DNA of 36,125 nucleotides from Solirubrobacteraceae bacterium (GTDB lineage Bacteria; Actinomycetota; Thermoleophilia; Solirubrobacterales; Solirubrobacteraceae): assembly GCA_017882455.1 (NCBI GenBank), contig JADGPL010000029.1, positions 1 through 36,125 of the forward strand. Direction: 5' to 3'. Below are positions 23,091-35,996 of the stretch, piece after piece. The position numbers and the translations under genes are program-made. A model generated the notes under the pieces. That model searched no databases and had not been told where the DNA came from. It saw only the letters and a list, made by a program, of their open reading frames with translations. Within the stretch, counting starts at the first letter, position 1, and the number at the start of each line of letters is the position of its first letter.

Positions 23091-24333
23091 GTGGACGTGT
23101 CCGTAAGTGATGCGGCTCAGGCGGCGAGCGCGAGCGGGGGAGGCTCGTGTTGAGTGATCTTCTCGATCACGCGGTCGAGCTTGGCGCGGGTGAAGGTCCA
23201 TTCGAACGGCCGGGCGATGGTGCGGTAGTGCTGCCCGAAGTCCAACAGGTGCCGGGCGAGTTCCGGCAAGCTCGCGAAGTCGTTGGGGGTCAGCGCCTTG
23301 CGTTGCACGATCGAGAAGTAGATCTCGATCTGGTTCAGCCAGGAGGCATGAACGGGAAGGTGAATCAGTCGAGCGTTGGGGTAGGCGTCGCGCATCCGCT
23401 TGACAGAGGTCTTCCCGGCGTGGCTTGAGCCGTTGTCAACGATCCAGTAGACGGTCCGCGCGGACCGGTACGGCTCGACGTTCATGACTTGGTCGACGAG
23501 CCGTCCGAACGGGAGGATGCCGGTGGTCTGCTCGACGCGGTCAAACAAGTTGGCGTGGTGCACGTCCCACGCGGCGAGGTAGGCGAGTGTCCCGCCGCGC
23601 AAGTACTCGAACTCGACCAGCCCTGGACGACCGGGTCCTGGCGGGAGGGTCGGGTGGTGGCGGCCGAGGGCCTGCAGCTGGGTCTTCTCATCGGCGCTGA
23701 TGACGTACTCGTCGGGGCGCAGGCGCTTGCCGTCGAAGGAGCGGGCGTAGAGGTCAAGCGCACGGGCGGCCTTCTCGGCGAAGTCGGGGTCGCGCGGGAA
23801 GATCCAGGAGCGGACCTGCCACGGCTTGATCGCGTCCTCGTGCAGCCACCGCCAGATCGTCGACGCGGACGCGTCAGTCACGCCGCGCTCGATCACCAGA
23901 CGGTGCAGCTCAACCCGCGAGAAGCGCGAGAGCGGAAGCTCGTGGCTGCGTGGCAGCTCGCACGCGATCGCCTTGACCTCGGCAACCTGCTCCGGGGGGA
24001 AAACGGCGCGGTCGTCCCGACCGCGCTTGATCCTCAAGCCCATCCAGCCTCTCGACGCAAAACCGGGCTCTTCGCCGCCCGACACTATCCGGCGAGCAAT
24101 CCAACCGCACCGCGATATCGATGTCCTGCATTCCCTCAGCCGCATACAAGATCATCCGCGCGCGCTGCACCGTCCGGAACGGCAACGTGACCGTGCCGGC
24201 CCGCCGCTCAAGCTCACTGCGCTCATCCTCGGAAAGCTCGATCACATGCTGGCTGGTCCTGGGCACGACACATAATTCTGCGCCCGCGACCCCAACCCTT
24301 CCAATAAGCCGCAGGACTTGCGGACACGTCCAC
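23091..24333. mobile_element. IS630-family insertion sequence, complete
   Basis: 1243 bp bounded by 18-bp inverted ends GTGGACGTGTCCGTAAGT at 23091-23108 and its complement with one change at 24316-24333. TA dinucleotides flank both ends (23089-23090 and 24334-24335), the target duplication made by IS630/Tc1-like transposases. It holds one transposase read leftward in two overlapping frames. It sits in an intergenic gap, upstream of the amidohydrolase and 15 bases from the end of the VOC gene, so no gene is broken. Confidence 0.93.
23117..24266 (-). CDS. IS630-family transposase, two frames joined by frameshift
   Basis: The first frame (24266 to 23910) carries the N-terminal helix-turn-helix (LSEDERSELERRAGTVTLP, VQRARMILYAAEGMQDIDIA). 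The second frame (open from 24145, stop at 23117) carries the DDE domain: SADEKTQ, VYWIVDNGSSHAGK, and LNQIEIYFSIVQRK with the final Glu. The homology passes from first to second frame near a T4C6 run (plus-strand bases 23994-24003), where DNA reads CGT TTT CCC CCC GGA in the first frame. The shift is +1 relative to the first frame. Either programmed slippage on the run or an old one-base mutation explains it. A fused product would be about 380 residues, normal for IS630. Confidence 0.88.
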
Positions 24334-24911: not shown

Positions 24912-25316
24912 ATGACGTTCAAGAACGTACTGGTGGGAGTGGATGGGAGGCCCACCGGCCGCGATGCGATTGCGCTCGCCTCTCAGCTGGTGGATCCCGA
25001 GGGGAAGCTGACGCTTGTCCATGTGCACCGCAACGAAATGGCGGAGCGCGAAGCGTCACACAAGCTGCTCGAAGAGGAGCGCAGTGCAGCAGCCGTGGAG
25101 GCGGAGCTCGTCAGCGTCGCCTCAAAGGCGCCGGGCGAGGGTCTTCACGAGCAGGCGAAGGAGCAGGGCGCAGATCTGCTCGTTGTCGGCTCCTGCAGCC
25201 ATGGCGTTCTCGGGCGCGCGGTGCTCGGCGATGACACACGCGCCGCCCTGAACGGCGCTCCCTGCACGGTCGCGGTAGCGACCAGCGGCTACGCCGAGCA
25301 GCTCGAGGCGAAGTAG
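24912..25316 (+). CDS. Universal stress protein (UspA-like), short
   Basis: 134 residues from ATG 24912: MTFKNVLVGVDGRPTGRDAI, then LTLVHVH, and near the end ADLLVVGSCSHGVLGRAVLG followed by GAPCTVAVAT. The UspA nucleotide-binding pattern G-x2-G-x9-G(S/T) is only approximate (GSCSHGVLG), so ATP binding is possible. It is a single-domain protein on the short side of the family. An upstream in-frame ATG at 24837 would add 25 residues unlike the family, so the later start is preferred. It is the last chromosomal gene before the tRNA-Trp attachment site. Confidence 0.87.
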   Translation: MTFKNVLVGVDGRPTGRDAIALASQLVDPEGKLTLVHVHRNEMAEREASHKLLEEERSAAAVEAELVSVASKAPGEGLHEQAKEQGADLLVVGSCSHGVLGRAVLGDDTRAALNGAPCTVAVATSGYAEQLEAK

Positions 25317-25419
25317 CCGACCTACCGGTGCAGCCGCCCGCGCCCGGAGTTCAGGGCGCCGGAGCCCAAAAAACGGCTCAGGAAGCAGCAACGCTCCGAT
25401 TTCCGGGGCATTCCTATAG

Positions 25420-25464
25420 CGGGGGACCCAGGAATCGAACCTGGCGTTGCGGTTTTGGAGACCG
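25420..25464 (-). other. Attachment site: displaced 3' half of tRNA-Trp
   Basis: Read on the reverse strand this is the last 45 bases of a tRNA: anticodon loop CTCCAAA (anticodon CCA), stem ACCGC, variable AACG, T-arm CCAGG-TTCGATT-CCTGG, acceptor GTCCCCC and discriminator G, which fits tryptophan. The 5' half is missing: beyond base 25464 the D-arm is absent and the first anticodon-stem pair mismatches. This is what integration through a tRNA anticodon stem leaves at the far end of an element. The orientation places the element to the right, where an integrase is found; the reconstituted tRNA should lie beyond the window. Confidence 0.82.
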
Positions 25465-25861: not shown

Positions 25862-28753
25862 ATGAACGCTGCGGGGACACAGCGACCAGGCGCGTTCCGA
25901 GCAAACGCACATCTCGTCCGGCTGGACTACAAGCTCGTAGAGGAACAGCGCCTGCGCGAGGCCCAACTGGGAGCCTGCGCAGCGCTGCTCTCGCACAGGG
26001 CTCTCAGCCGGGCCCCAGCGCAAATCGTGCTGCCGACTGGCGTCGGGAAGTCGCTGGTGCTCACTGCCGCCCCCTACCTGCTGCGCGCCGAACGCGTGCT
26101 GGTTGTCGCACCGGGACGACTGGTTCGCGATCAGCTCTACAACGGGTTCAAGACACTCGATCAGCTGACCCGCGCAGGCGTACTGCCCAACGGCACCGCC
26201 CCACCCGAGGTACGCGTCGCGCGCAAGCTTGCCACGCCGGAGGACTGGGAGCACTGGGAAGCCGCCGACGTAGTCATCGGCACCCCCCACGTACTCAGCG
26301 ACGGCTACCCAAATGTGACGCGCGTACCACGGAACCTGTTCGATCTGATCCTCTTCGACGAGGCGCACCACCTGCCGGCGAGCACATGGACGAAGCTGCA
26401 CGATGCCGTGGACGCTCGCGCTGTGCTGCTGACCGCAACACCGGTGCGGCGCGATGGCAAGCGTCTACCAGGTGAGATCGCGTTCGTGTATCCGCTGGAG
26501 CGAGCGTTGGACACGAAGGTGTACTCGCCGGTCGAGTACATCCCTGTCACGCCAGCTGCCGGTGAAGAGAAAGATCACGCGCTGGCCATGAAGGCAAAGG
26601 AGCGTCTGCTCAGCGACGCGCACACCGCAGCCAACAGTCGCCTGCTCGTCCGCGCTGACCGGCGCATAGATGCGGAAGCGCTCGTCGAGCTCTACCGATC
26701 AATCGCGGTGCCGTTGGGTTTGATCGTCGCAAGTAGCAGCGCGCGCAACGTTCGCAGCACGCTGGAGAAGCTGACCTCCGGAGAGTTGCTCGGGCTAGCG
26801 TGCGTCGGGTCGCTCACCGAGGGATTCGACTTCCCTACGCTGAAGATCGCGGCGTACCACACGCCCCATCGCTCCCTACAGCCAACTTTGCAGTTCCTCG
26901 GCCGGCTTTCCCGGGTTACTACGATCACTGGAGAGCTCATAGCGGACCCTCGTGATCTCTCGCGAGACACCGCAACGCTCTACCGAAGTGATGAGGCATG
27001 GTCGCGGCTATTGCCCCAGATCGTCGACTCGGCGGTACAGCTTGAGCGCGACACGCGCCGGTTCATCGACCGGGCGCAGCCAGCTGGCGGACCGGTCGCT
27101 CTCCCCTGGCTCGCGCTCGCACCCCCCCGCTCGGTGCAGATCTACCGGGTCCCTGAGCGTCCCACACTCGACCTGAGCCCGGACCTGCTCGGCCGCCAGC
27201 GAGTCACCCAACGCCTCTACCAGCCCGAGCACGATCTGCTCGCGGTCCTGACGGAGGAGCGTTCGCGCCCTCGGTTCGCCACATCCAGCCACCTGGACGG
27301 CTACGCACACCATCTCCACCTCGCCCATTGGGTACGCGAGCATGGGCTGCTGTTTATCTCAAGCGACAGGCCATCCGCCCAGGCCGAACTGCTCGCGCAA
27401 GCCGGAGTGACTGGCGCGCCGCTGATTGGCGCCTCGGACCTACGCAGGCTGCTTGCGGCGACAAACGCAAAGCGATTCTTCAACGTGGGCCTGCGTGAGA
27501 GCCGGCCACGGGAGGCGTTCAACGCCTCCTACGAGACGCTCGCGGGCCCACATGCCGACGCCGCAGTTGGTGCAGACGACGTCGAGAACAAGCTGCTCGG
27601 CCACGCGATGGGACGCATTGGCAGCGGAGCAGGCACCTTCGGGATCTCCACCGCCAAGGGAAAGTACTGGGAGCCAGCGCGTGCCGCGAGCCTGTTCGAG
27701 TTCAAGGAATGGTGCGCACAGTGCGCAGTCAATGTCACCGCCGGCGCTGGCGCCGGCTCACCGACGGCGCTTCACAGCCTCAGGATCGCCGACCGCATCA
27801 TGCGGTACCCGGAGCATCCCATCGCCGCGAGCCTCAACGAGAGATTCCTCGCCGGCAACCAAAGTCTGGTGCTCGGCCAGCAGGAGATTGCGCCCGTCGA
27901 CATCGACATCGACATGGAACGGACCGATGACACCCATCTCTGCCTGACTCTCTGTCACCACGGGTCGCCGGTGACACGCATCACGACAAACGTGAACGGA
28001 ACTTTCGAGGCGGAGGACGATGCTTACGCACTGGATCTCGATAGCGGAGAGCTGAGCGCTCTTGGGGTGAGCCTTCAGTCCGCGCCGCCGACGATCTACT
28101 TCGGGGACGGCTCAGCCGTCATAGGATCGACGAGCAGCACCCCAAAGATCGAGCCCGGCGGCGACCCTCCGGAGTTCGCGATCGGCCTTGGATGGGCTGG
28201 GGTCAACCTCGCCGTCGAGGCAGGAGATGCAGGACCAGCGCTAATCAACATCCAAGAGTCCACGCGGCGCTACGCCGCGCAGCACGCAACATGGCTGATC
28301 ACCGACCACGGCACTGGAGAGCTCGCCGACCTCGTCGCGATCACGACGGGAACAGCAGGAGCCACAACGGTGGAGTTCATGCACTGCAAGGGCAGCAAAA
28401 AACCGCCAGGAGGGCGAGTCGAAGACCTTTATGAGGTGATCGGACAGGCCCTGCGCAGCGTGCGTCACTGCCGTGAGGGTGAGAGCCTCTGGCGCGAGCT
28501 GAGCAGCAGGCTCGCTTCCCGCGCGAGCACTAGGGTCCTCAATGGCGACGCCACCACGCTGACGGCGGCTCTTGCGCACTGGTCCAGTGGCGGCGCTCCG
28601 CTCACGACCTTCAAGGTCACGGCCGTGCAGCCGGGACTACTGCTGTCGCAGGCCGGTAGCAGCACAACCATCCGCCAGTTGCTGTTCGCTGCGAACGCTC
28701 ACTGCTTCGCACAAGGCGTCCAGCTGCAGTTGTGGTGCAACGACGGGTCCTGA
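25862..28753 (+). CDS. DEAH superfamily 2 helicase with large unknown C-terminus
   Basis: 963 residues. Residues ~35-400 are an SF2 helicase: Walker A PTGVGKS at 58-64, DEAH at 166-169, TATP at 191-194, EGFDFP around 320-325, and motif VI QFLGRLSR at 344-351. The remaining ~560 residues match nothing I can name. Near the C-terminus, LADLVAI (D823), then VEFMHCKGS (E838, H841, K843), then GGRVEDLYEVIGQALRS resemble the spacing of a PD-(D/E)xK nuclease core, with H in place of the usual acid two before Lys. The gene stands alone between attachment site and integrase, where such elements carry cargo. A defence role is an inference. Confidence 0.8.
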   Translation: MNAAGTQRPGAFRANAHLVRLDYKLVEEQRLREAQLGACAALLSHRALSRAPAQIVLPTGVGKSLVLTAAPYLLRAERVLVVAPGRLVRDQLYNGFKTLDQLTRAGVLPNGTAPPEVRVARKLATPEDWEHWEAADVVIGTPHVLSDGYPNVTRVPRNLFDLILFDEAHHLPASTWTKLHDAVDARAVLLTATPVRRDGKRLPGEIAFVYPLERALDTKVYSPVEYIPVTPAAGEEKDHALAMKAKERLLSDAHTAANSRLLVRADRRIDAEALVELYRSIAVPLGLIVASSSARNVRSTLEKLTSGELLGLACVGSLTEGFDFPTLKIAAYHTPHRSLQPTLQFLGRLSRVTTITGELIADPRDLSRDTATLYRSDEAWSRLLPQIVDSAVQLERDTRRFIDRAQPAGGPVALPWLALAPPRSVQIYRVPERPTLDLSPDLLGRQRVTQRLYQPEHDLLAVLTEERSRPRFATSSHLDGYAHHLHLAHWVREHGLLFISSDRPSAQAELLAQAGVTGAPLIGASDLRRLLAATNAKRFFNVGLRESRPREAFNASYETLAGPHADAAVGADDVENKLLGHAMGRIGSGAGTFGISTAKGKYWEPARAASLFEFKEWCAQCAVNVTAGAGAGSPTALHSLRIADRIMRYPEHPIAASLNERFLAGNQSLVLGQQEIAPVDIDIDMERTDDTHLCLTLCHHGSPVTRITTNVNGTFEAEDDAYALDLDSGELSALGVSLQSAPPTIYFGDGSAVIGSTSSTPKIEPGGDPPEFAIGLGWAGVNLAVEAGDAGPALINIQESTRRYAAQHATWLITDHGTGELADLVAITTGTAGATTVEFMHCKGSKKPPGGRVEDLYEVIGQALRSVRHCREGESLWRELSSRLASRASTRVLNGDATTLTAALAHWSSGGAPLTTFKVTAVQPGLLLSQAGSSTTIRQLLFAANAHCFAQGVQLQLWCNDGS

Positions 28754-28844: not shown

Positions 28845-30086
28845 CTAGTCGAGTGTGCCGTGCCCGGTGAGCACATCAGCATCCCGCGCGAGCCACCGAT
28901 CAAGCAACTCCTGGGCGTGGTTCATCTCGCCGGGCAATCCGTGCGTATAGCGCTCCTGCGTGATCCGCGCAGCTCCGACCTGGTGCGCAGGTGCCGCATG
29001 TCCCATGAACTGAGAAACGATGACCGGCCGGACTCCGGCGGCGTCGAGCCACGACGCACAGGTGTGCCGACACTCGTGGGCCGTGATCCGGTCACCGACC
29101 TTCTCACCAGTCGGCTCGCCGTGCCTGCCCTTCGGCTCCCAAACGTCGTCGGCACGCTTTTGCAGGCCCTCGAACGACAACATGCCGCTATTCCGCCCTC
29201 CGGGCTTGTGCCCGGGACAGAGCAGCACTTTGGGCCCGGGCCGACCACGGCGCATGAGCTCGCGCCGCAGCCTTGCAGCGAGCGGTTTGACGATGGGCAC
29301 AGCTCGCTGGGCGGCGCGCGACTTCCGCCCACGCTCGTCGGCACCCAGGTAGATGACACCGAGGTCGAGGTCGACATCTTCCACGCGCGCGTGACGAATC
29401 TCGGCTCTGCGGGCGGTCGCGTAGGCAGCGAGCGCATACGGGAGAGCGTCGGCGGGATCGAGCGCGTCGAGCAAGGTCTGCATCTCAGCGACGGTGGCAA
29501 CTCGATCCCGCGGGGTCGCGTTCATCGCGGGGAGACGAACCCGCGAGGCTGGATCGTGGTCGACGAGTTCACGGTCTTGCGCCCAGCCGTAAAGGCTGCG
29601 GATCGCGTTGACAACGGTGCGCACGCGGCTGCCGGACTTCTCCGGTGTTATCGAGTCGATGAGCCGCTGGACGTCGCCGCGGCGCACATCCGCGAGGCGC
29701 TTTCCACCGAAAGCCGGCCGCACGTAACGTTCAAGCGCTCCTTGAAGATCGCGCACGGCTGATGGCTTGTACTGGCGTCCGTGCTTGTTCAGTGCTCGGC
29801 CTGCATCGATTGCTGCGAGGTACGCCTCGATCGCGGTCGAGACTCGCATCGAGTTCGATGCAGGCACTCTTCCCGCGCGAACCGTCGCCTGGAGGTCGGT
29901 GCGAGCGCTGCGCGCCTCAGCGATCGTGCGCACCATCTTGGTCTTGCGGTGCTTGGTGTCCACCCGGTCCCATACCCGGCCCCAGTAGGACGGCGAGCAG
30001 TCGCAAGTTCCATCTTGTTCGACTGCGCAGTCAATTCGGTGGCGCGCGTAAACGCCTTGGTATCGAGTCTTGGTGTCCTTCGGCAT
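28845..30086 (-). CDS. Tyrosine integrase of the mobile element
   Basis: 413 residues from ATG 30086 (MPKDTKTRYQGVYARHRIDC). The N-terminal part resembles an arm-binding domain with a CDCSPSYWGRVW segment. A SAM-like core-binding domain follows (about 95-190: STAIEAYLAAIDAG, TVVNAIRSLYGWA). The catalytic domain has box I Arg in TARRAEIRHARVEDVDL, box II HECRHTCASWL, and the nucleophile Tyr in ITQERYTHGLPGE. All catalytic landmarks appear present, so it may be active. The gene ends 91 bases from the helicase end (convergent). With the excisionase and relaxase it forms the recombination/transfer block of the element. The closest attachment site is the tRNA-Trp fragment. Confidence 0.93.
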   Translation of the reverse strand: MPKDTKTRYQGVYARHRIDCAVEQDGTCDCSPSYWGRVWDRVDTKHRKTKMVRTIAEARSARTDLQATVRAGRVPASNSMRVSTAIEAYLAAIDAGRALNKHGRQYKPSAVRDLQGALERYVRPAFGGKRLADVRRGDVQRLIDSITPEKSGSRVRTVVNAIRSLYGWAQDRELVDHDPASRVRLPAMNATPRDRVATVAEMQTLLDALDPADALPYALAAYATARRAEIRHARVEDVDLDLGVIYLGADERGRKSRAAQRAVPIVKPLAARLRRELMRRGRPGPKVLLCPGHKPGGRNSGMLSFEGLQKRADDVWEPKGRHGEPTGEKVGDRITAHECRHTCASWLDAAGVRPVIVSQFMGHAAPAHQVGAARITQERYTHGLPGEMNHAQELLDRWLARDADVLTGHGTLD

Positions 30087-30091
30087 ACCGG

Positions 30092-30310
30092 TCACGCTAC
30101 ACGTCGCCCCTGCTGGATCGTGTGCTCTTTGAGCCACTCCTCGAGCGACTGTCTGGGGTACAGCCGCAGCGCTCCCGAGTAGACGACCGGGAGGTCGGGC
30201 TTGACGTGCCGGGCGAAGTGATCCACGGATATGCCGAGCGCTTCCGCGGCCTCCTGCTGATTGAAGGCGAGGCGCGGCACCGTGCGCCGCATGCGCTTCT
30301 CGCTCGTCAT
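30092..30310 (-). CDS. Excisionase-like helix-turn-helix protein
   Basis: 72 residues with a MerR/AlpA-type helix-turn-helix (FNQQEAAEALGISVDHFARHV) and wing (LPVVYSGALRLYPRQSLEEWL). This is the DNA-binding excisionase pattern found next to tyrosine integrases. The ATG overlaps the relaxase stop by four bases (ATGA), and the integrase starts six bases later, so the three genes are one leftward transcript. It probably directs excision or represses integration. Confidence 0.88.
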   Translation of the reverse strand: MTSEKRMRRTVPRLAFNQQEAAEALGISVDHFARHVKPDLPVVYSGALRLYPRQSLEEWLKEHTIQQGRRVA

Positions 30311-32958
30311 CGTGTTCGCTCTTGTGCTGGTGGCTTGATGGCGCGGTGGAGTGTGCGGATGACGCCGGGGAGGCGTGGGGCGTAGCGCTCGGGGCCTCGG
30401 CTTGCGATCGTGCGATCGAATCCTGGCCAGCGTTCGTAGCCGGGTGGCTCTGGGTGTGCGAGGGACGGTGTTTGGATGCGGCTGCGGCCCATGTCTCGCG
30501 CGAGACGTTTGATTCGGGCGGCGTCATGGCCGTCGGTGCCGAGATCGTCTCGGTTGACGTACCAGTCGGTTCCTTGGCGGGCGCGGGATGCCTCTACGTA
30601 TGCGGGCTCCTTGCTGGTCTGCCAGCCGCCCGTCACGACGAGCGTGCGTGTCACGGTCGCGCCCTGCGCGCGGTGGATGTGGCTGGCGTACCCGAGCCGT
30701 AGGCGTGCGAGCTCGTCGCCGGCGAGTGTTCGCCACTGGTGGGTGGCGTCGAACTGGATCAGCACCTCGCCGGTCTCGTTGATGTCGATGACCTCACCGC
30801 GGGCGCCGTTCTCGACGCGCTCACTACCGAGCTGGTGGTGCTGGTCGATCATCGCCACCCGATCACCCGCACGGACGCCGTAGTGGACGCCCGGCACCTG
30901 GACTTCGATGTCGCCGAGTTCGCCGCGCTCGGCGCGATAGTGCTGAGCCCGCGCGTTCAGGCGGTTGATCTCCACATTGGATGCGTCAGAGATCAGCGCA
31001 ACCTCACTGATCGGGATCGTCTCGGTCAGCATGGCCCATCCCTGGACAGCGCGCTCAACAGCCTCATCGCGGGTGTCGCTCATATGTAGCTGGCCTCTGC
31101 GGAGGTAGTGCGCCATCGCCCTGTCAGAACGGCCGGCGCGCAAATCCGCCCACGCCCTCTGCTCGGCGCGGTCAAGGGTGCGCCGCACGTTCGATAGCTG
31201 CGCGCTCGGCGCGATCTCTGCGAGCCGATCGAACATGCCACCCGCGCCAATCGAGGGGAGCTGCGCGCCATCACCGATCGCCACGAGCTTCGCCCCCGTC
31301 CGGTCAACCACCTCAGTCAGCCGGTCGAGCCTGCTCGTGTCCGCCATCCCCGCCTCGTCAAAGAAGATCGTCGTGCGCGCGTCGATGTCGAGCCGGCCAT
31401 GCTCGACTCTCGCCACGAGCGCATCGAGCGTCAGCGTCCGCCCGGCCAGCGCGGGGCTGTCTTGGCCGAGACGCTGCGCGGTAGAGCCGGACACCGCGAT
31501 CCCGTAGGTGTGGTGGCCGGTGAGCTGCTCTGCTCTCGCGGCGGCGTCGATCACCACGCCCTTGCCGGTGCCTGCTGGCCCGACGAGGACCGCAGCACGC
31601 TCCGGGCCGGTGATCGCATGGAGCGCCAGGGCCTGCTCGTCGCTCAGGCGCGAGCCGATCCGCTCCGCGAGCTGGTCACTGGCGACCGTGCGCGCCTGCT
31701 CGCCCACGTCCCTGCCGGCGGGCTGGGCGAGCTGCGTGACCCTGCGCTCGATCGCCTGCTCTTTGGCGCGTACTGCGAGCGTCGTCATCCGCCCGCCCTC
31801 CAACGGGAGCACGCGACGCTCGGCGATCATCCCCCGCGCCCTGGCAAGCGCGTCCGCTGGAGAGAGTTCACCAGCGGACTGCTCGAGCAGCACCGCGCGC
31901 AGCTCGCCGGGCTCGAATGTCGCGGCGCGCTCGGTCAATCGTTCTTCGACGCGATCCTCAAGCGCACGCCCCGCACGCGAGCGATCGCCGCGCGTCCCGT
32001 CGGGTAGCTCAAGCTGGGAGCCGTGGCGTGCGGCCTTCTCATCCCACACCCGCTGCAGATCCACATGGGTGACGGGGAGCTTGGCCTTACGGTTCTCCAG
32101 CTTCAGCCGCCGCAGCTCGCCATGCTCGGGTGCCCTCCCCCACTTCGCCCGGAACTGCTCAGCCGCCCGTGCGACCTCACGGCTGCGAGCAGAGAACACA
32201 TCGAGCAACCCCTGCGGCACCCCTGCGATCTCAAAATAGCGGCCCTCCTTCCCCGTCCCTCCGTCGATCTCATAGCCGCGCTCAGACAGCTCGTGTGCGA
32301 GCGCGGAACGGTAGAACGCACCAACCTCACGACCAGAGCGAAAGACCGGCCGTGAGGCAACCGCCACGATCCGTCCGTCATCCCTGACCGCGCTCGTGAC
32401 GACCACGTGACTGTGCAGCTGCGGGTCCGGTGCGTCGCCATCCATCACGCCGCGCGCGGTCGTGTGCAGATACTCCGCGGCGATCAGCTCGCGGGCCGGC
32501 TCCTCCACCACCCCGCGGCCATACCGGCGCCGCACGGCCGGCACTGTCTCGGTCATGTGCTCGATCGCCTGCTCGACCGCGCTTCGGTGCGCCTCCTCGA
32601 TCACTCCCCGCTCGTGTTCATCGCCGAGCGCCCACGTCACCGACACAGACTTCGGCGCGCTGAACGTCACATCGACCCCACCACCCCGGCAGCCGTCCGC
32701 CCCGGCACGGCGAAGCCAGCCGCCACCCCTCGGGTGCCTGCCCTCCATCAACGCGATGAAGTCCGGGCCATCGACGACGCTGCTCTCGATGCCGAGCTGC
32801 GCGAGCGTGTCCGCCGACGCGAGCCACCGGCCGGGCGCCTGCGCGGGCTCGCCGCCGGGCGTGAGGTAGTAGTCGCCGCGCTCGGGCTGGACGGTCTTGC
32901 CCTCCAGATACCGGGCGTAGCCGCCGCCTTTCGCGGCACCAATGCTCGATGCAGTCAT
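30307..32958 (-). CDS. MobF-family relaxase with helicase domain
   Basis: 883 residues from ATG 32958 (MTASSIGAAKGGGYARYL); GTG/ATG codons a little upstream are alternatives. The relaxase part (about 1-300) has VDVTFSAPKSVSVTWAL and the His cluster LHSHVVVTSAVRDDGR of TrwC/TraA enzymes. The second half is a RecD-like SF1 helicase: GPAGTGKG (Walker A), FFDEAGM (Walker B), IGDGAQLPSIG, and YASHIHRAQGATV with VEASRARQG near the end. Such proteins nick at oriT and unwind DNA during transfer. No mating-pore genes are visible, so the element is likely mobilised by a helper. Probable oriT is upstream. Confidence 0.93.
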   Translation of the reverse strand: MTASSIGAAKGGGYARYLEGKTVQPERGDYYLTPGGEPAQAPGRWLASADTLAQLGIESSVVDGPDFIALMEGRHPRGGGWLRRAGADGCRGGGVDVTFSAPKSVSVTWALGDEHERGVIEEAHRSAVEQAIEHMTETVPAVRRRYGRGVVEEPARELIAAEYLHTTARGVMDGDAPDPQLHSHVVVTSAVRDDGRIVAVASRPVFRSGREVGAFYRSALAHELSERGYEIDGGTGKEGRYFEIAGVPQGLLDVFSARSREVARAAEQFRAKWGRAPEHGELRRLKLENRKAKLPVTHVDLQRVWDEKAARHGSQLELPDGTRGDRSRAGRALEDRVEERLTERAATFEPGELRAVLLEQSAGELSPADALARARGMIAERRVLPLEGGRMTTLAVRAKEQAIERRVTQLAQPAGRDVGEQARTVASDQLAERIGSRLSDEQALALHAITGPERAAVLVGPAGTGKGVVIDAAARAEQLTGHHTYGIAVSGSTAQRLGQDSPALAGRTLTLDALVARVEHGRLDIDARTTIFFDEAGMADTSRLDRLTEVVDRTGAKLVAIGDGAQLPSIGAGGMFDRLAEIAPSAQLSNVRRTLDRAEQRAWADLRAGRSDRAMAHYLRRGQLHMSDTRDEAVERAVQGWAMLTETIPISEVALISDASNVEINRLNARAQHYRAERGELGDIEVQVPGVHYGVRAGDRVAMIDQHHQLGSERVENGARGEVIDINETGEVLIQFDATHQWRTLAGDELARLRLGYASHIHRAQGATVTRTLVVTGGWQTSKEPAYVEASRARQGTDWYVNRDDLGTDGHDAARIKRLARDMGRSRIQTPSLAHPEPPGYERWPGFDRTIASRGPERYAPRLPGVIRTLHRAIKPPAQERTR

Positions 32959-33392
32959 CACTACTGTTAATGACCGTGAGCGGCCGAAAACGGCCACCCG
33001 ATTTCGGGGAGATGGCTATCCACGCCCTGTATAGACCCCAACCGCCCAAGACCGGCCAACGACTTTCCCGGCACGCTGGGGGAGCGCGTACAAGGAGGCG
33101 AAGCCGACGCCTCCGATGCAGGTAGCGGCGGCCACCCGGCCGCAACCACCCCCGACGCCCGCGCCACCACGTAGCCCTGCGCGCCCAGACTGGCGATACG
33201 CGCGGCCCCTCACCGCTCGAAGGCCCGCCCGCGCAGTCGGCGACCCGAGTATCCCCGCTCGCAGGACACAGCAATCGCACAGCACCCGCTGGTGTGTGCA
33301 TCATGTCTGTTCTGGCCGTTGTGCTGTGCGTCGGCGTGTGGCGTAGTCGGCGCACAGCGTTGCGTCGGGGTGCTGCTGTAGCGTCGCGGCTC
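32959..33392. promoter_or_regulatory. Relaxase upstream region with candidate oriT hairpin
   Basis: 434 bases between the divergent relaxase and HEPN genes with no credible ORF. A perfect 7-bp hairpin GGAGGCG-N7-CGCCTCC lies at 33094-33114, 136 bases upstream of the relaxase ATG. MobF oriT sites usually lie next to the relaxase gene and include inverted repeats, so this is a candidate; no nic site can be assigned. Divergent promoters for both genes should also lie here. Confidence 0.35.
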
Positions 33393-33980
33393 ATGGCTTC
33401 AAAGTCGCTCATGGATTGGCGATCGGACGCGGCGGCGGCGTTCGACGAGATCGAGAACGCGCATAAGGCAGTCGGCGGGAGCAAGCCGGGCCGGCGGTTC
33501 TTGACCCAGCAGCTCAACTACGCCTACACGATGCTGCTCGCGGCGCGCTTCCAGGGATTCGCCCGCGCGCTACACGCGCAGACCGCAGACGCTATCGCGC
33601 TCGGGGCACACGACGCCAACTACGCGGAGCTGTTGTATGGAAGCCTGACGAACAACACGACTCTTGAACGGAACAACGCACATCCCAACTCGATCGCTGA
33701 CGACTTCGCACGCTTCGGGCTCGACATCTGGGCCGATGTCGATCGGGAGCGCAGCCGCAACGACGAGCGTCGCAAGAAGCTCTGGGCGCTCGTCACGTGG
33801 CGCAACGCGATCGCGCACGACGATATCGATGCCAAGCTCAAGAGAGGGGCTCTGGAACCCTTGACGATCAGCCTCGCCACGTGCCGTGGCTGGCGCAGCG
33901 CGCTCAACATCCTGGCCACATCGCTCGATAAGGTCGCAGCCGACCGCTGCCAAGCGCTCGGACTTTCCCGTCCTTGGTGA
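33393..33980 (+). CDS. HEPN-motif protein of the mobile element
   Basis: 195 residues from ATG 33393 (MASKSLMDWRSDAAAAFDEI); an upstream in-frame ATG at 33294 adds residues unlike the rest. The protein is mostly helical. R137-N-A-I-A-H142 followed by acidic residues (VTWRNAIAHDDID) fits the HEPN R-x4-H signature. A segment LNYAYTMLLAARFQGFARAL is typical of the RiboL-PSP-HEPN group, where a conserved helix precedes the motif. It may be an RNase toxin or a stress/defence effector. It is followed 12 bases later by a small beta-rich protein, an arrangement like toxin and antitoxin. Confidence 0.65.
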   Translation: MASKSLMDWRSDAAAAFDEIENAHKAVGGSKPGRRFLTQQLNYAYTMLLAARFQGFARALHAQTADAIALGAHDANYAELLYGSLTNNTTLERNNAHPNSIADDFARFGLDIWADVDRERSRNDERRKKLWALVTWRNAIAHDDIDAKLKRGALEPLTISLATCRGWRSALNILATSLDKVAADRCQALGLSRPW

Positions 33981-34280: not shown

Positions 34281-34499
34281 TCAGTCCTTGGGCGCCAGCG
34301 TCGACAGCGGAACGCCCATCCCATCGGCCAGCGCGATCATCACGTCATACGTGGGATCGAGCCGTCCAGCTTCAAGGGCGCTGATCCGCTGTGCGGCAAT
34401 GCCGGTTCTTGCGGTGAGGTCCGCGACGGTGGTTCCCTGGTGTTCGCGCACCCGCCGGAACGACTCGCCAAAGCGGATCAGCTCAGCTCGCTCGTCCAT
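34281..34499 (-). CDS. XRE-family transcriptional regulator
   Basis: 72 residues from ATG 34499 (MDERAELIRFGESFRRVREH). The Cro/C1 helix-turn-helix is clear: TVADLTARTGIAAQRISALEAGRLDPTYDVMIALADGMGVPL. It consists almost only of the DNA-binding domain, as in small immunity repressors of mobile elements or antitoxins. It overlaps the last 17 bases of the upstream two-component-like regulator on the same strand, so they are co-expressed. It could control the element's own genes or the neighbouring HEPN unit. Confidence 0.88.
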   Translation of the reverse strand: MDERAELIRFGESFRRVREHQGTTVADLTARTGIAAQRISALEAGRLDPTYDVMIALADGMGVPLSTLAPKD

Positions 34500-35211
34500 A
34501 GCCTTCTCTCGTTGGTGGCGTGCTGGGCGCGAGGCAGTAGCCGACGCCCCATGTCGAGCGCACCCAGCCGATCGCGCCGGCCTTCGCGAGCTTGCAACGC
34601 AGCCGCGAAGCATGCGTCTCCACCGTCCGCGAGGCGTCCTGCGACGGATATCCCCACACTCGGCGCAGCAGCTCGGTCTTGGCGAATACGCGGGTCGGCT
34701 CCCGCGCGAGATAGAGCAGTAGCGCGTACTCAAGTCTGCGCAGGCTCACGGGCGTCGATCCGTAGATCACGGTCCGCGTGGCCGTGTGGATCGTCAGGGC
34801 GTCGCACTGGATCACTGTCGGTATCTCGATCGTGGGCCGGCGCAGAAGCGCCCGCACTCGCGCGAGCAGCTCCGCGTACGCGAACGGCGCGCGGATCACG
34901 TCATCCGCCCCAGCATCGAACGCGCGCAGGATGTCGATGGGATCGCTGCTTCTGCTCATCCATAGGACGCGGACTCCGGAGCCCGCAAGCTCGCCCCGAC
35001 GCAAGGCACGTAGAGCGTCCAGCCCCGCGCCTCTCTTCGACGTGTGAGCAAAGACGACCAGATCGACCTCGCCGAGCAACGCGAGGTCGTAGACCGGCCG
35101 TACGTCGAAGCCGTCCAGTGCCAGCTCATCAGCCAACACTTGGTTTTCGTTCGCCTGGCCGTATACGACTACGACCTGGGGCGCAGCTCGCGGGGTATCC
35201 TCCGGCTGCAT
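34483..35211 (-). CDS. OmpR-type regulator with a dead (pseudo) receiver
   Basis: 242 residues from ATG 35211. The N-terminal ~120 fold like a receiver but lack the phosphorylation site: the acidic pair after strand 1 is Y17-G18, the acceptor position is A55 (LVVFAH), and the Lys before Pro-Phe is A108 (VIRAPF). The C-terminal OmpR/PhoB winged helix is intact (PVSLRRLEYALLLYLAREP, RRVWGYPSQDASRTVETHASRLRCKL). It is therefore likely phosphorylation-independent, as in atypical or ligand-controlled regulators. No histidine kinase is visible. Its ATG is close to the 3' end of a group II intron remnant, so its original promoter may have been changed. Confidence 0.85.
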   Translation of the reverse strand: MQPEDTPRAAPQVVVVYGQANENQVLADELALDGFDVRPVYDLALLGEVDLVVFAHTSKRGAGLDALRALRRGELAGSGVRVLWMSRSSDPIDILRAFDAGADDVIRAPFAYAELLARVRALLRRPTIEIPTVIQCDALTIHTATRTVIYGSTPVSLRRLEYALLLYLAREPTRVFAKTELLRRVWGYPSQDASRTVETHASRLRCKLAKAGAIGWVRSTWGVGYCLAPSTPPTREGYGRAS

Positions 35212-35231
35212 GGGAAGGTCCTTCCTTTCCG

Positions 35232-35296
35232 ATCGGGTCGGGGCCGGGCTTAACCCGGCCCCTCCCACACCACCGGACATGCGGGTCCGCATCCGG
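35232..35296 (-). ncRNA. Group II intron domains V and VI (3' end)
   Basis: On the reverse strand, CCGGATGCGG-ACC-CGCATGTCCGG (35273-35296) makes the domain V hairpin, followed by GGTGGTGTGGGAG and a perfect stem GGGGCCGGG/CCCGGCCCC (35240-35262) with loop TTAAG as domain VI. The sequence then ends in GACCCGAT, like known bacterial intron 3' ends. Exon boundary is at about 35232. These structures overlap the last codons of the maturase frame. Confidence 0.72.
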
Positions 35297-35996
35297 CGGT
35301 TCGCGTCGTGTCCCGGAAACGGCGGTAAGGGTCGGCGAATCCCTTCAGGCCCTGCTCGGCCCAGTAGGCATCTGGTAGGGCGCGCTTGAGGAAGGTGCGT
35401 GCTGCACGCCAGGAGCCCTTGTTGGTCATGGCCCACTCGCGGGCCTCCCGGTCGGGCATTCCCAGCGCCTGCAGGCGGCTCCATCGTGTTCTGATGCGCT
35501 GCCATTCCTTCCAGCGTGCCTGTCTCATCCTGCCTCTGAGCCAGCCGTCGAGCTCGATGAACGGTGTGGGTGTGTCGGCGAACGCGAAGTAGGCCGTCCA
35601 CCCAACCGTGAAGCGGTTGATCTCAGTGATCCTCCGCTGCATCGAGACACCCCAAGTACGGGAGGTCAAACGGCGTATCTGGTCCTTGGCCCGCTTGCGG
35701 GCTTTGGGGTCCAGCCACACCTTGACCTCGCCTTTGCGGCGGTGAAAGCAGAACCCCAGAAAGGGGCGCCTTCCCGCCCGGTCCACCGCGGACTTCCCTT
35801 GGTTGACCTTCAACTTGAGGCTGTGTTCGACGTATCCGCTGATGCTCTGCAGGACGCGCTGTCCCGCCCGCTCGCTGGCGACATAGATCCTGCTGTCGTC
35901 CGCGTAGCGCACGAAACGGTGCCCGCGCCGATCAAGCTCCCAGTCGAGGTCGTCGAGCATGACGTTTGAGAGCAGCGGCGAGAGGACTGCTCCCAC
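35250..35996 (-). pseudogene. Group II intron reverse transcriptase/maturase, 5'-truncated
   Basis: About 248 residues from the reverse strand: GAVLSPLLSNVMLDDL (RT block 4), RFVRYADDSRIYV with the catalytic YADD, FLGFCFHRRKGEV (block 6-7), then a maturase domain (RLTSRTWGVSMQRRITEINRF, VGWTAYFAFADTP). RT blocks 0-3 are missing, as is the intron's 5' RNA domain. The frame runs into unrelated recombinase sequence at about 35997, so the intron is truncated by recombination or deletion. The remnant cannot retrohome. Confidence 0.9.

Follow-up and report, generated by a model that had tools for sequence, protein, structure and literature searches.

What does a large protein do whose gene is the sole gene of note between a tRNA fragment and an integrase? 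In the window, by which we mean the whole stretch of 36,125 nucleotides of Solirubrobacteraceae DNA that was analysed, an uninterrupted frame on the forward strand runs from ATG to stop and encodes a protein of 963 residues. An earlier note had read this gene as a helicase with an unrecognised C-terminus, perhaps a divergent nuclease, carried as lone cargo between a tRNA-Trp attachment fragment and an integrase. Both flanks were confirmed, and the gene and its immediate surroundings are listed here.

25419 to 25464, reverse strand: tRNA-Trp (CCA) 3' fragment of 46 bp, an attachment-site remnant at the left end of the element (only copy in its own assembly; 46/46 versus a same-genus tRNA-Trp)
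25862 to 28753, forward strand: predicted helicase-nuclease gene (963 aa, open frame; 61 full-length sequences aligned)
28845 to 30527, reverse strand: tyrosine recombinase (integrase) of the element (Pfam Phage_integrase, E = 7.7e-13)
30307 to 32997, reverse strand: MobF/TrwC relaxase-helicase, start codon uncertain, its frame overlapping that of the integrase (Pfam TrwC, E = 1.7e-64; NCBIfam MobF, E = 3e-59)

The tRNA-Trp fragment comprises the part from the anticodon loop to the acceptor, and up to 46 of its 46 bases are identical to the 3' part of an intact tRNA-Trp of the same genus. ARAGORN called no complete tRNA at the fragment, and no second copy of it was found in the window's own draft assembly. 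A gap of 397 bp separates the fragment from the ATG of the helicase-nuclease gene, and 91 bp lie between the stop codon and the integrase gene. With its MobF relaxase, the element can probably be mobilised. On the outer side of the tRNA-Trp fragment, a gene for a universal stress protein (24912-25316) is taken to be the chromosomal flank; because the element reaches the contig end at 36125, its other end lies outside the sequence. Some genomes of the same genus (L111 and L114) hold an intact tRNA-Trp and a further partial copy 1.2-1.4 kb away, which points to tRNA-Trp as a recurrent insertion site in the genus, and the short inserted segments at one tRNA gene in these two genomes have the appearance of an insertion hotspot. 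Several other genes were seen nearby. Within the same element, 33294-33980 (forward strand) has a weak likeness to HEPN_RiboL-PSP (Pfam E = 5.5e-5, below the cut-off), and its product is possibly an RNase toxin or that of a second defence gene. A response-regulator-like protein with a Trans_reg_C domain is encoded at 34483-35601 (reverse strand), also within the element, and a fragment of a group II intron reverse transcriptase/maturase at the contig end (35250-36125, reverse strand). An IS630-family transposase gene (23117-24145, reverse strand) lies just beyond the element.

The protein was compared with 60 relatives in an alignment of 61 full-length sequences, its own included, that share 22-39% identity with it, and AlphaFold2 models were made of the full-length protein (pLDDT 85) and of residues 403-963 (pLDDT 88). 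The following parts, all on the forward strand, were recognised.

25943 to 26536, forward strand: RecA-like domain 1 of the SF2 motor, residues ~28-225, with K63 and DEAH 166-169 (Pfam ResIII, E = 1.9e-18; structure matches to FANCM, RIG-I, Mfd, RadD and XPB at Z 25-28)
26537 to 27076, forward strand: RecA-like domain 2, residues ~226-405, with motifs V and VI (E320, Q344, R348, R351; invariant residues and structure match)
27119 to 27754, forward strand: probable RdgC-like domain, a predicted DNA-binding clamp, residues ~420-631 (AF2 pLDDT 88; Foldseek match to 2owy, E = 3.7e-4; VIA Z 8.3-8.5; phage RdgC models)
27755 to 28171, forward strand: beta-rich stretch without an assigned fold, residues ~632-770, the least conserved part (model and conservation)
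28199 to 28750, forward strand: predicted PD-(D/E)XK-type nuclease domain, residues ~780-963 (alpha-beta-beta-beta-alpha core in the model; VIA matches)
28217 to 28219, forward strand: codon of E786 (61/61 invariant)
28319 to 28330, forward strand: E820-x-A-D823, the GExAD motif (E820 and D823 each 61/61)
28382 to 28390, forward strand: H841-C-K843, HxK replacing the usual (D/E)xK (H841 and K843 each 61/61)
28445 to 28447, forward strand: Q862, a glutamine of the core helix (61/61 invariant)

The N-terminal part is a complete SF2 DEAH motor, as the earlier note had claimed. Its motifs are GVGKS with K63, DEAH at 166-169, TAT at 191-193 and QxxGRxxR at 344-351, and the residues of Walker A, DEAH, TAT and motifs V and VI are invariant or nearly so among the 61 aligned sequences. 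RadD, SauUSI (7clg) and XPB are the nearest solved motors by sequence profile, and RadD/XPB by Foldseek; Tako8 and SAM synthetase, which also matched by sequence in the PDB, were taken as chance hits. The likeness to the RadD/XPB repair helicases stops with the motor region, however, and we know of no RadD or XPB protein with an RdgC-like domain and a PD-(D/E)XK C-terminus. On the 963-aa protein Pfam found a ResIII/DEAD helicase at residues 30-196 and nothing else, and the 561 residues that follow the motor (403-963) matched no Pfam family in any of the 61 aligned sequences, so that the description of the C-terminus as unrecognised held.

The model of this C-terminal region was nonetheless informative. 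For residues ~420-631 the top match of a PDB-wide Foldseek search was RdgC (2owy, E = 3.7e-4, probability 1.00), and VIA aligned 193-199 residues to RdgC with an rmsd of 4.3-4.6 and a Z of 8.3-8.5, which is just above the level of a common arrangement. A second library agreed: a search of viral protein models returned a phage 'Recombination-associated protein'. The kinetochore proteins Iml3/CENP-L (Z about 7-8), phage lambda RexA and RnlA matched the middle domain with lower scores. Since the identity to RdgC is about 11% and the Z lies so near the common-arrangement level, we regard residues ~420-631 as a probable RdgC-like, DNA-gripping domain. According to the title of 2owy, RdgC binds DNA with a toroidal architecture, and a role in gripping DNA is therefore the natural reading of the modelled fold. 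RdgC itself is a stand-alone, ring-forming DNA-binding protein, whereas here a shorter version of the domain appears to sit inside a helicase-nuclease. This domain had been missed in the first reading of the sequence, and it changes the mechanism to be proposed.

The last ~180 residues carry the strongest evidence for a catalytic function. In the fold search of the C-terminal model (403-963) for a PD-(D/E)XK core, which had been suggested as a check, PD-(D/E)XK enzymes led the matches at residues ~780-963: CdiA-CT (VIA Z 8.8, 144 residues aligned, rmsd 3.8), EndoMS (6.5), Hachiman 8zue_A (6.2), Card1 (5.7) and LmuA (5.1), the individual Z values being modest. We take all five to be PD-(D/E)XK nucleases. 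The order of helices and strands in the model (helix 797-806, strands 811-815, 824-829 and 835-842, helix 853-870, strand 890-894) was accompanied by six invariant residues, namely E786, E820, D823, H841, K843 and Q862 (61/61 each), in the pattern E...GExAD...HCK...GQ. Overall conservation of the nuclease core (0.49) is close to that of the motor (0.51), with the lowest value (0.29) found for residues 632-770. Because the invariant residues agree with the secondary structure and the class of fold, a PD-(D/E)XK-type nuclease with a variant HxK active site is the clear reading of the modelled C-terminus, rather than a known non-nuclease domain. The arrangement D823...E838-x2-H841-x-K843 proposed in the earlier note stood in part: D823, H841 and K843 are invariant, but position 838 is Glu in 12 of the 61 sequences, which rules out E838 as a catalytic residue. 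H841 occupies the place at which the core hairpin of PD-(D/E)XK enzymes usually has Asp or Glu, flanked in the pattern by the invariant D823 and K843. The missing metal ligand may be supplied by E820 or E786. The replacement could also mean that metal catalysis is altered or lost; the strict conservation of the HxK site argues for nuclease activity. A PADLOC candidate, PDC-S71, matched the C-terminal region in 10 of the 61 sequences (best E = 6.5e-9), and the nuclease module thus seems to be common to another single-gene defence candidate. In the one case examined the alignment covered positions 420-482 of the 589-position profile; the window protein itself had no match to PDC-S71, and no helicase is common to the two.

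With these domains assigned, the protein could be set against known helicase-nucleases. A type IV restriction enzyme of the SauUSI kind, whose middle domain would read modified bases and whose nuclease would cut the modified DNA, is in our judgment improbable. Such an enzyme is likewise a single ATP-dependent helicase-nuclease polypeptide without a methylase, and the helicase region does match PADLOC mREase_IV and SauUSI weakly, but that match spans the helicase core alone, and the middle domain matched RdgC, with no modified-base reader fold among the matches listed. In addition, the SauUSI nuclease is of a different type and sits at the opposite end of the protein, so that the domain order differs as well. 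Hachiman (HamAB) resembles the window protein in combining a helicase sensor with a PD-(D/E)XK effector, and 8zue_A is among the structures matched by the nuclease domain. Hachiman, however, consists of two genes, with a separate HamA (DUF1837) beside HamB. The C-terminus had no Pfam match to HamA (DUF1837), no such neighbour was found among the tested window ORFs, and the weak PADLOC match of the window protein to HamB did not extend beyond the helicase core. The single gene and the absence of HamA rule out Hachiman.

The closest parallel in layout is Hna (Sinorhizobium meliloti SMa2245), also a single protein with an N-terminal SF2 helicase, a C-terminal PD-(D/E)XK nuclease, a broad and patchy distribution and carriage on plasmids. 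Hna is a 3'-5' ssDNA exonuclease that is triggered by SSB and causes abortive infection, the phage SSB releasing an ATP-inhibited nuclease (PMC13381803). Membership in this family was a first guess from the literature. We placed the SMa2245 gene on pSymA (L121, 12345-14882; 845 aa as published), and BLASTP of the window protein against SMa2245 gave no significant match; hhalign returned a probability of 22% over 126 columns of the motor, where the helicase motifs are common to both. Hna has 845 residues, an XPD/DinG-like helicase with a reduced Arch domain and a FECK nuclease motif, whereas the window protein has 963 residues, a ResIII/RadD-like motor, an RdgC-like middle domain and an HCK motif. 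Membership was therefore ruled out by sequence, the helicase class being different, but by analogy Hna may be the best guide to how the helicase-nuclease family works (PMC13381803).

Relatives of the gene are widespread and sparsely distributed. When one genome per species was scanned, at least 381 relatives were confirmed, the best 80 of which were used. NCBI labels relatives 'DEAD/DEAH box helicase family protein', with no more specific name. The aligned relatives come from ten phyla, and their tree takes 18 phylum changes compared with a minimum of nine, a pattern consistent with transfer though short of proof of it. A stringent profile is matched by 8 of the 232 genomes of the window's order, of which two give only partial matches; among 24 genomes of its genus, the window's own is the single positive. 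Among complete E. coli genomes, the variant tested is present in 14 of 5426. Plasmid records with relatives number 136, and in 31 of these at least 80% of the protein is covered; carriers include plasmids of Klebsiella, Pseudomonas and Acinetobacter as well as E. coli islands. In viral contigs all 80 loci kept match the helicase core alone (approximately residues 4-395) and none is full-length, by which a phage replication helicase was ruled out. In the phage collection a near full-length relative occurs solely in two Acinetobacter 'phage' records. One relative in the same order (L162) is spread over two neighbouring frames (profile positions 5-552 and 554-969), and this is either a natural two-gene version or the result of a frameshift or assembly error.

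The neighbourhoods of relatives were surveyed for defence genes, another check that the earlier note had proposed, and enrichment was found. The 112 proteins that are nearest neighbours of ~30 relatives matched 328 PADLOC models at E <= 1e-8, whereas 112 control proteins taken from remote parts of these genomes matched 41. This difference is indicative only and overstates the independent evidence, because PADLOC models are redundant. AbiEii, GajA, PtuA, LmuB, Old and a type II methylase are among the neighbour matches, whereas the control matches are mostly generic. A complete Gabija system (GajB, E = 2e-187; GajA, E = 6e-207) adjoins a relative on an A. baumannii plasmid. Alphaproteobacterial plasmids carry AbiEi/AbiEii and SIR2 near a Bradyrhizobium relative and AbiEii and HEPN near a Roseovarius relative, and a Rhodococcus relative has an Abi-family gene and an integrase nearby. 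In E. coli, one relative, WP_087602985.1 (L117, 12001-15282), lies beside a type I restriction operon at tRNA-Leu, with a WYL regulator and an integrase also present; another is next to an integrase at ssrA. Two further E. coli neighbours (L117, 15435-16700; L119, 12951-13595) are hypothetical proteins without a PADLOC match, whose genes may be accessory to those variants. On a P. aeruginosa plasmid the relative has upstream of it a gene for a 1015-aa hypothetical protein, also without a PADLOC match (L016, 4559-7603). Several relatives are found among ordinary genes, and no fixed core genome position was seen. A tRNA lies within 1.5 kb of 5 of 71 relatives and of none of 80 control windows, which is suggestive only. 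The relaxase and integrase of the window were not found near relatives of the same order.

These neighbourhoods also bear on whether the protein acts by itself. With its ResIII-class motor it might be the orphaned effector of a restriction system made of several proteins (type I/III or BREX-related), its partners being encoded elsewhere in the genome, and type I M and S genes do immediately precede E. coli relatives. Those operons, however, have their own gene for the helicase (R) subunit. No conserved partner gene emerged over 71 loci, and no neighbour family occurs in more than 11 neighbourhoods; the commonest, with 11 including the window's, is an integrase of the same family as that of the element. 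In the window no methylase or specificity subunit was detected among the ORFs tested, in agreement with the earlier note, and no methylase adjoins the gene. A type I/III subunit was rejected on these grounds, and we consider an orphan subunit of any of these systems very unlikely. The helicase-nucleases of BREX type 1 BR belong to the Swi2/Snf2 helicases and have a DUF499 ATPase and a methylase as partners (PMC12839542); this description sets them apart, such partners not being seen here.

Another reading is that the protein is a non-immune DNA repair or recombination enzyme that serves the mobile element, at transfer joints or by modulating RecA through the RdgC-like domain. Its motor is nearest to the RadD/XPB repair helicases, RdgC is a recombination-associated protein, and the gene is carried on plasmids and integrative elements. 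In contrast, defence genes abound in the neighbour sets, relatives also occur on the chromosome in restriction islands that have no transfer genes close by, and no transfer gene is a conserved partner. We consider this reading unlikely, but it bears on the immune one, since no known defence system adjoins the gene in the window and carriage on plasmids and islands also fits repair or maintenance of the element.

On balance, the protein is likely to be a single-protein, nucleic-acid-targeting defence enzyme that forms the cargo of an integrative mobilisable element. A role in defence is supported by context, that is, by the enrichment over the same-genome control, the patchy occurrence among phyla and the presence of integrases, tRNA genes, restriction genes and Gabija as neighbours. 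The reading given in the earlier note is thus partly supported overall: the helicase-nuclease assignment agrees with the invariant residues and the modelled fold, and the defence inference has gained contextual support and the standing of a candidate. For the helicase-nuclease family we infer action on DNA, protection against phage or plasmid, a triggering structure, and an outcome of clearance or cell death. The RadD/XPB-like SF2 motor would load on DNA and move along it with ATP, while the RdgC-like domain would grip or encircle the DNA and may select structures of phage or plasmid replication such as ends, gaps or recombination joints. The HxK-variant PD-(D/E)XK nuclease would cut on encountering a structure or protein characteristic of the replication of an invader, resulting in clearance of the invader or death of the infected cell. 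Since no methylase is linked to the gene, the host probably does not mark its own DNA by modification, which makes a trigger by replication structures or a phage protein likelier than recognition of a sequence. By analogy with the SSB-triggered Hna (PMC13381803), the trigger is likely to be a protein or an ssDNA structure. More tentatively, and with a chance of being right that falls somewhat short of even, we propose an undescribed phylum-wide immune family that couples a translocase, an RdgC-like clamp and an HxK-variant nuclease and uses a recombination fold as its sensor of invader replication.

That the family may be undescribed, as suggested from the sequence at the outset, finds support in searches of PADLOC 2.0.0, Pfam and NCBIfam as well as of the open literature. 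No PADLOC-DB 2.0.0 model was matched over most of its length by the window protein or by nine relatives, the matches being weak and confined to the helicase core, and no description of a helicase combined with an RdgC-like and a PD-(D/E)XK domain was found in the open literature, subscription papers and newer catalogues being outside the scope. In single-protein helicase-nucleases such as Hna, one polypeptide can both sense and destroy phage DNA. The protein described here would reach a similar layout from a different branch of helicases, with another middle domain and another nuclease motif. As a candidate for a widespread defence system of the helicase-nuclease kind, consisting of one protein, it is well supported, and its confirmation would add a common system to the defence catalogues and provide a test of the RdgC fold as an immune sensor of DNA.
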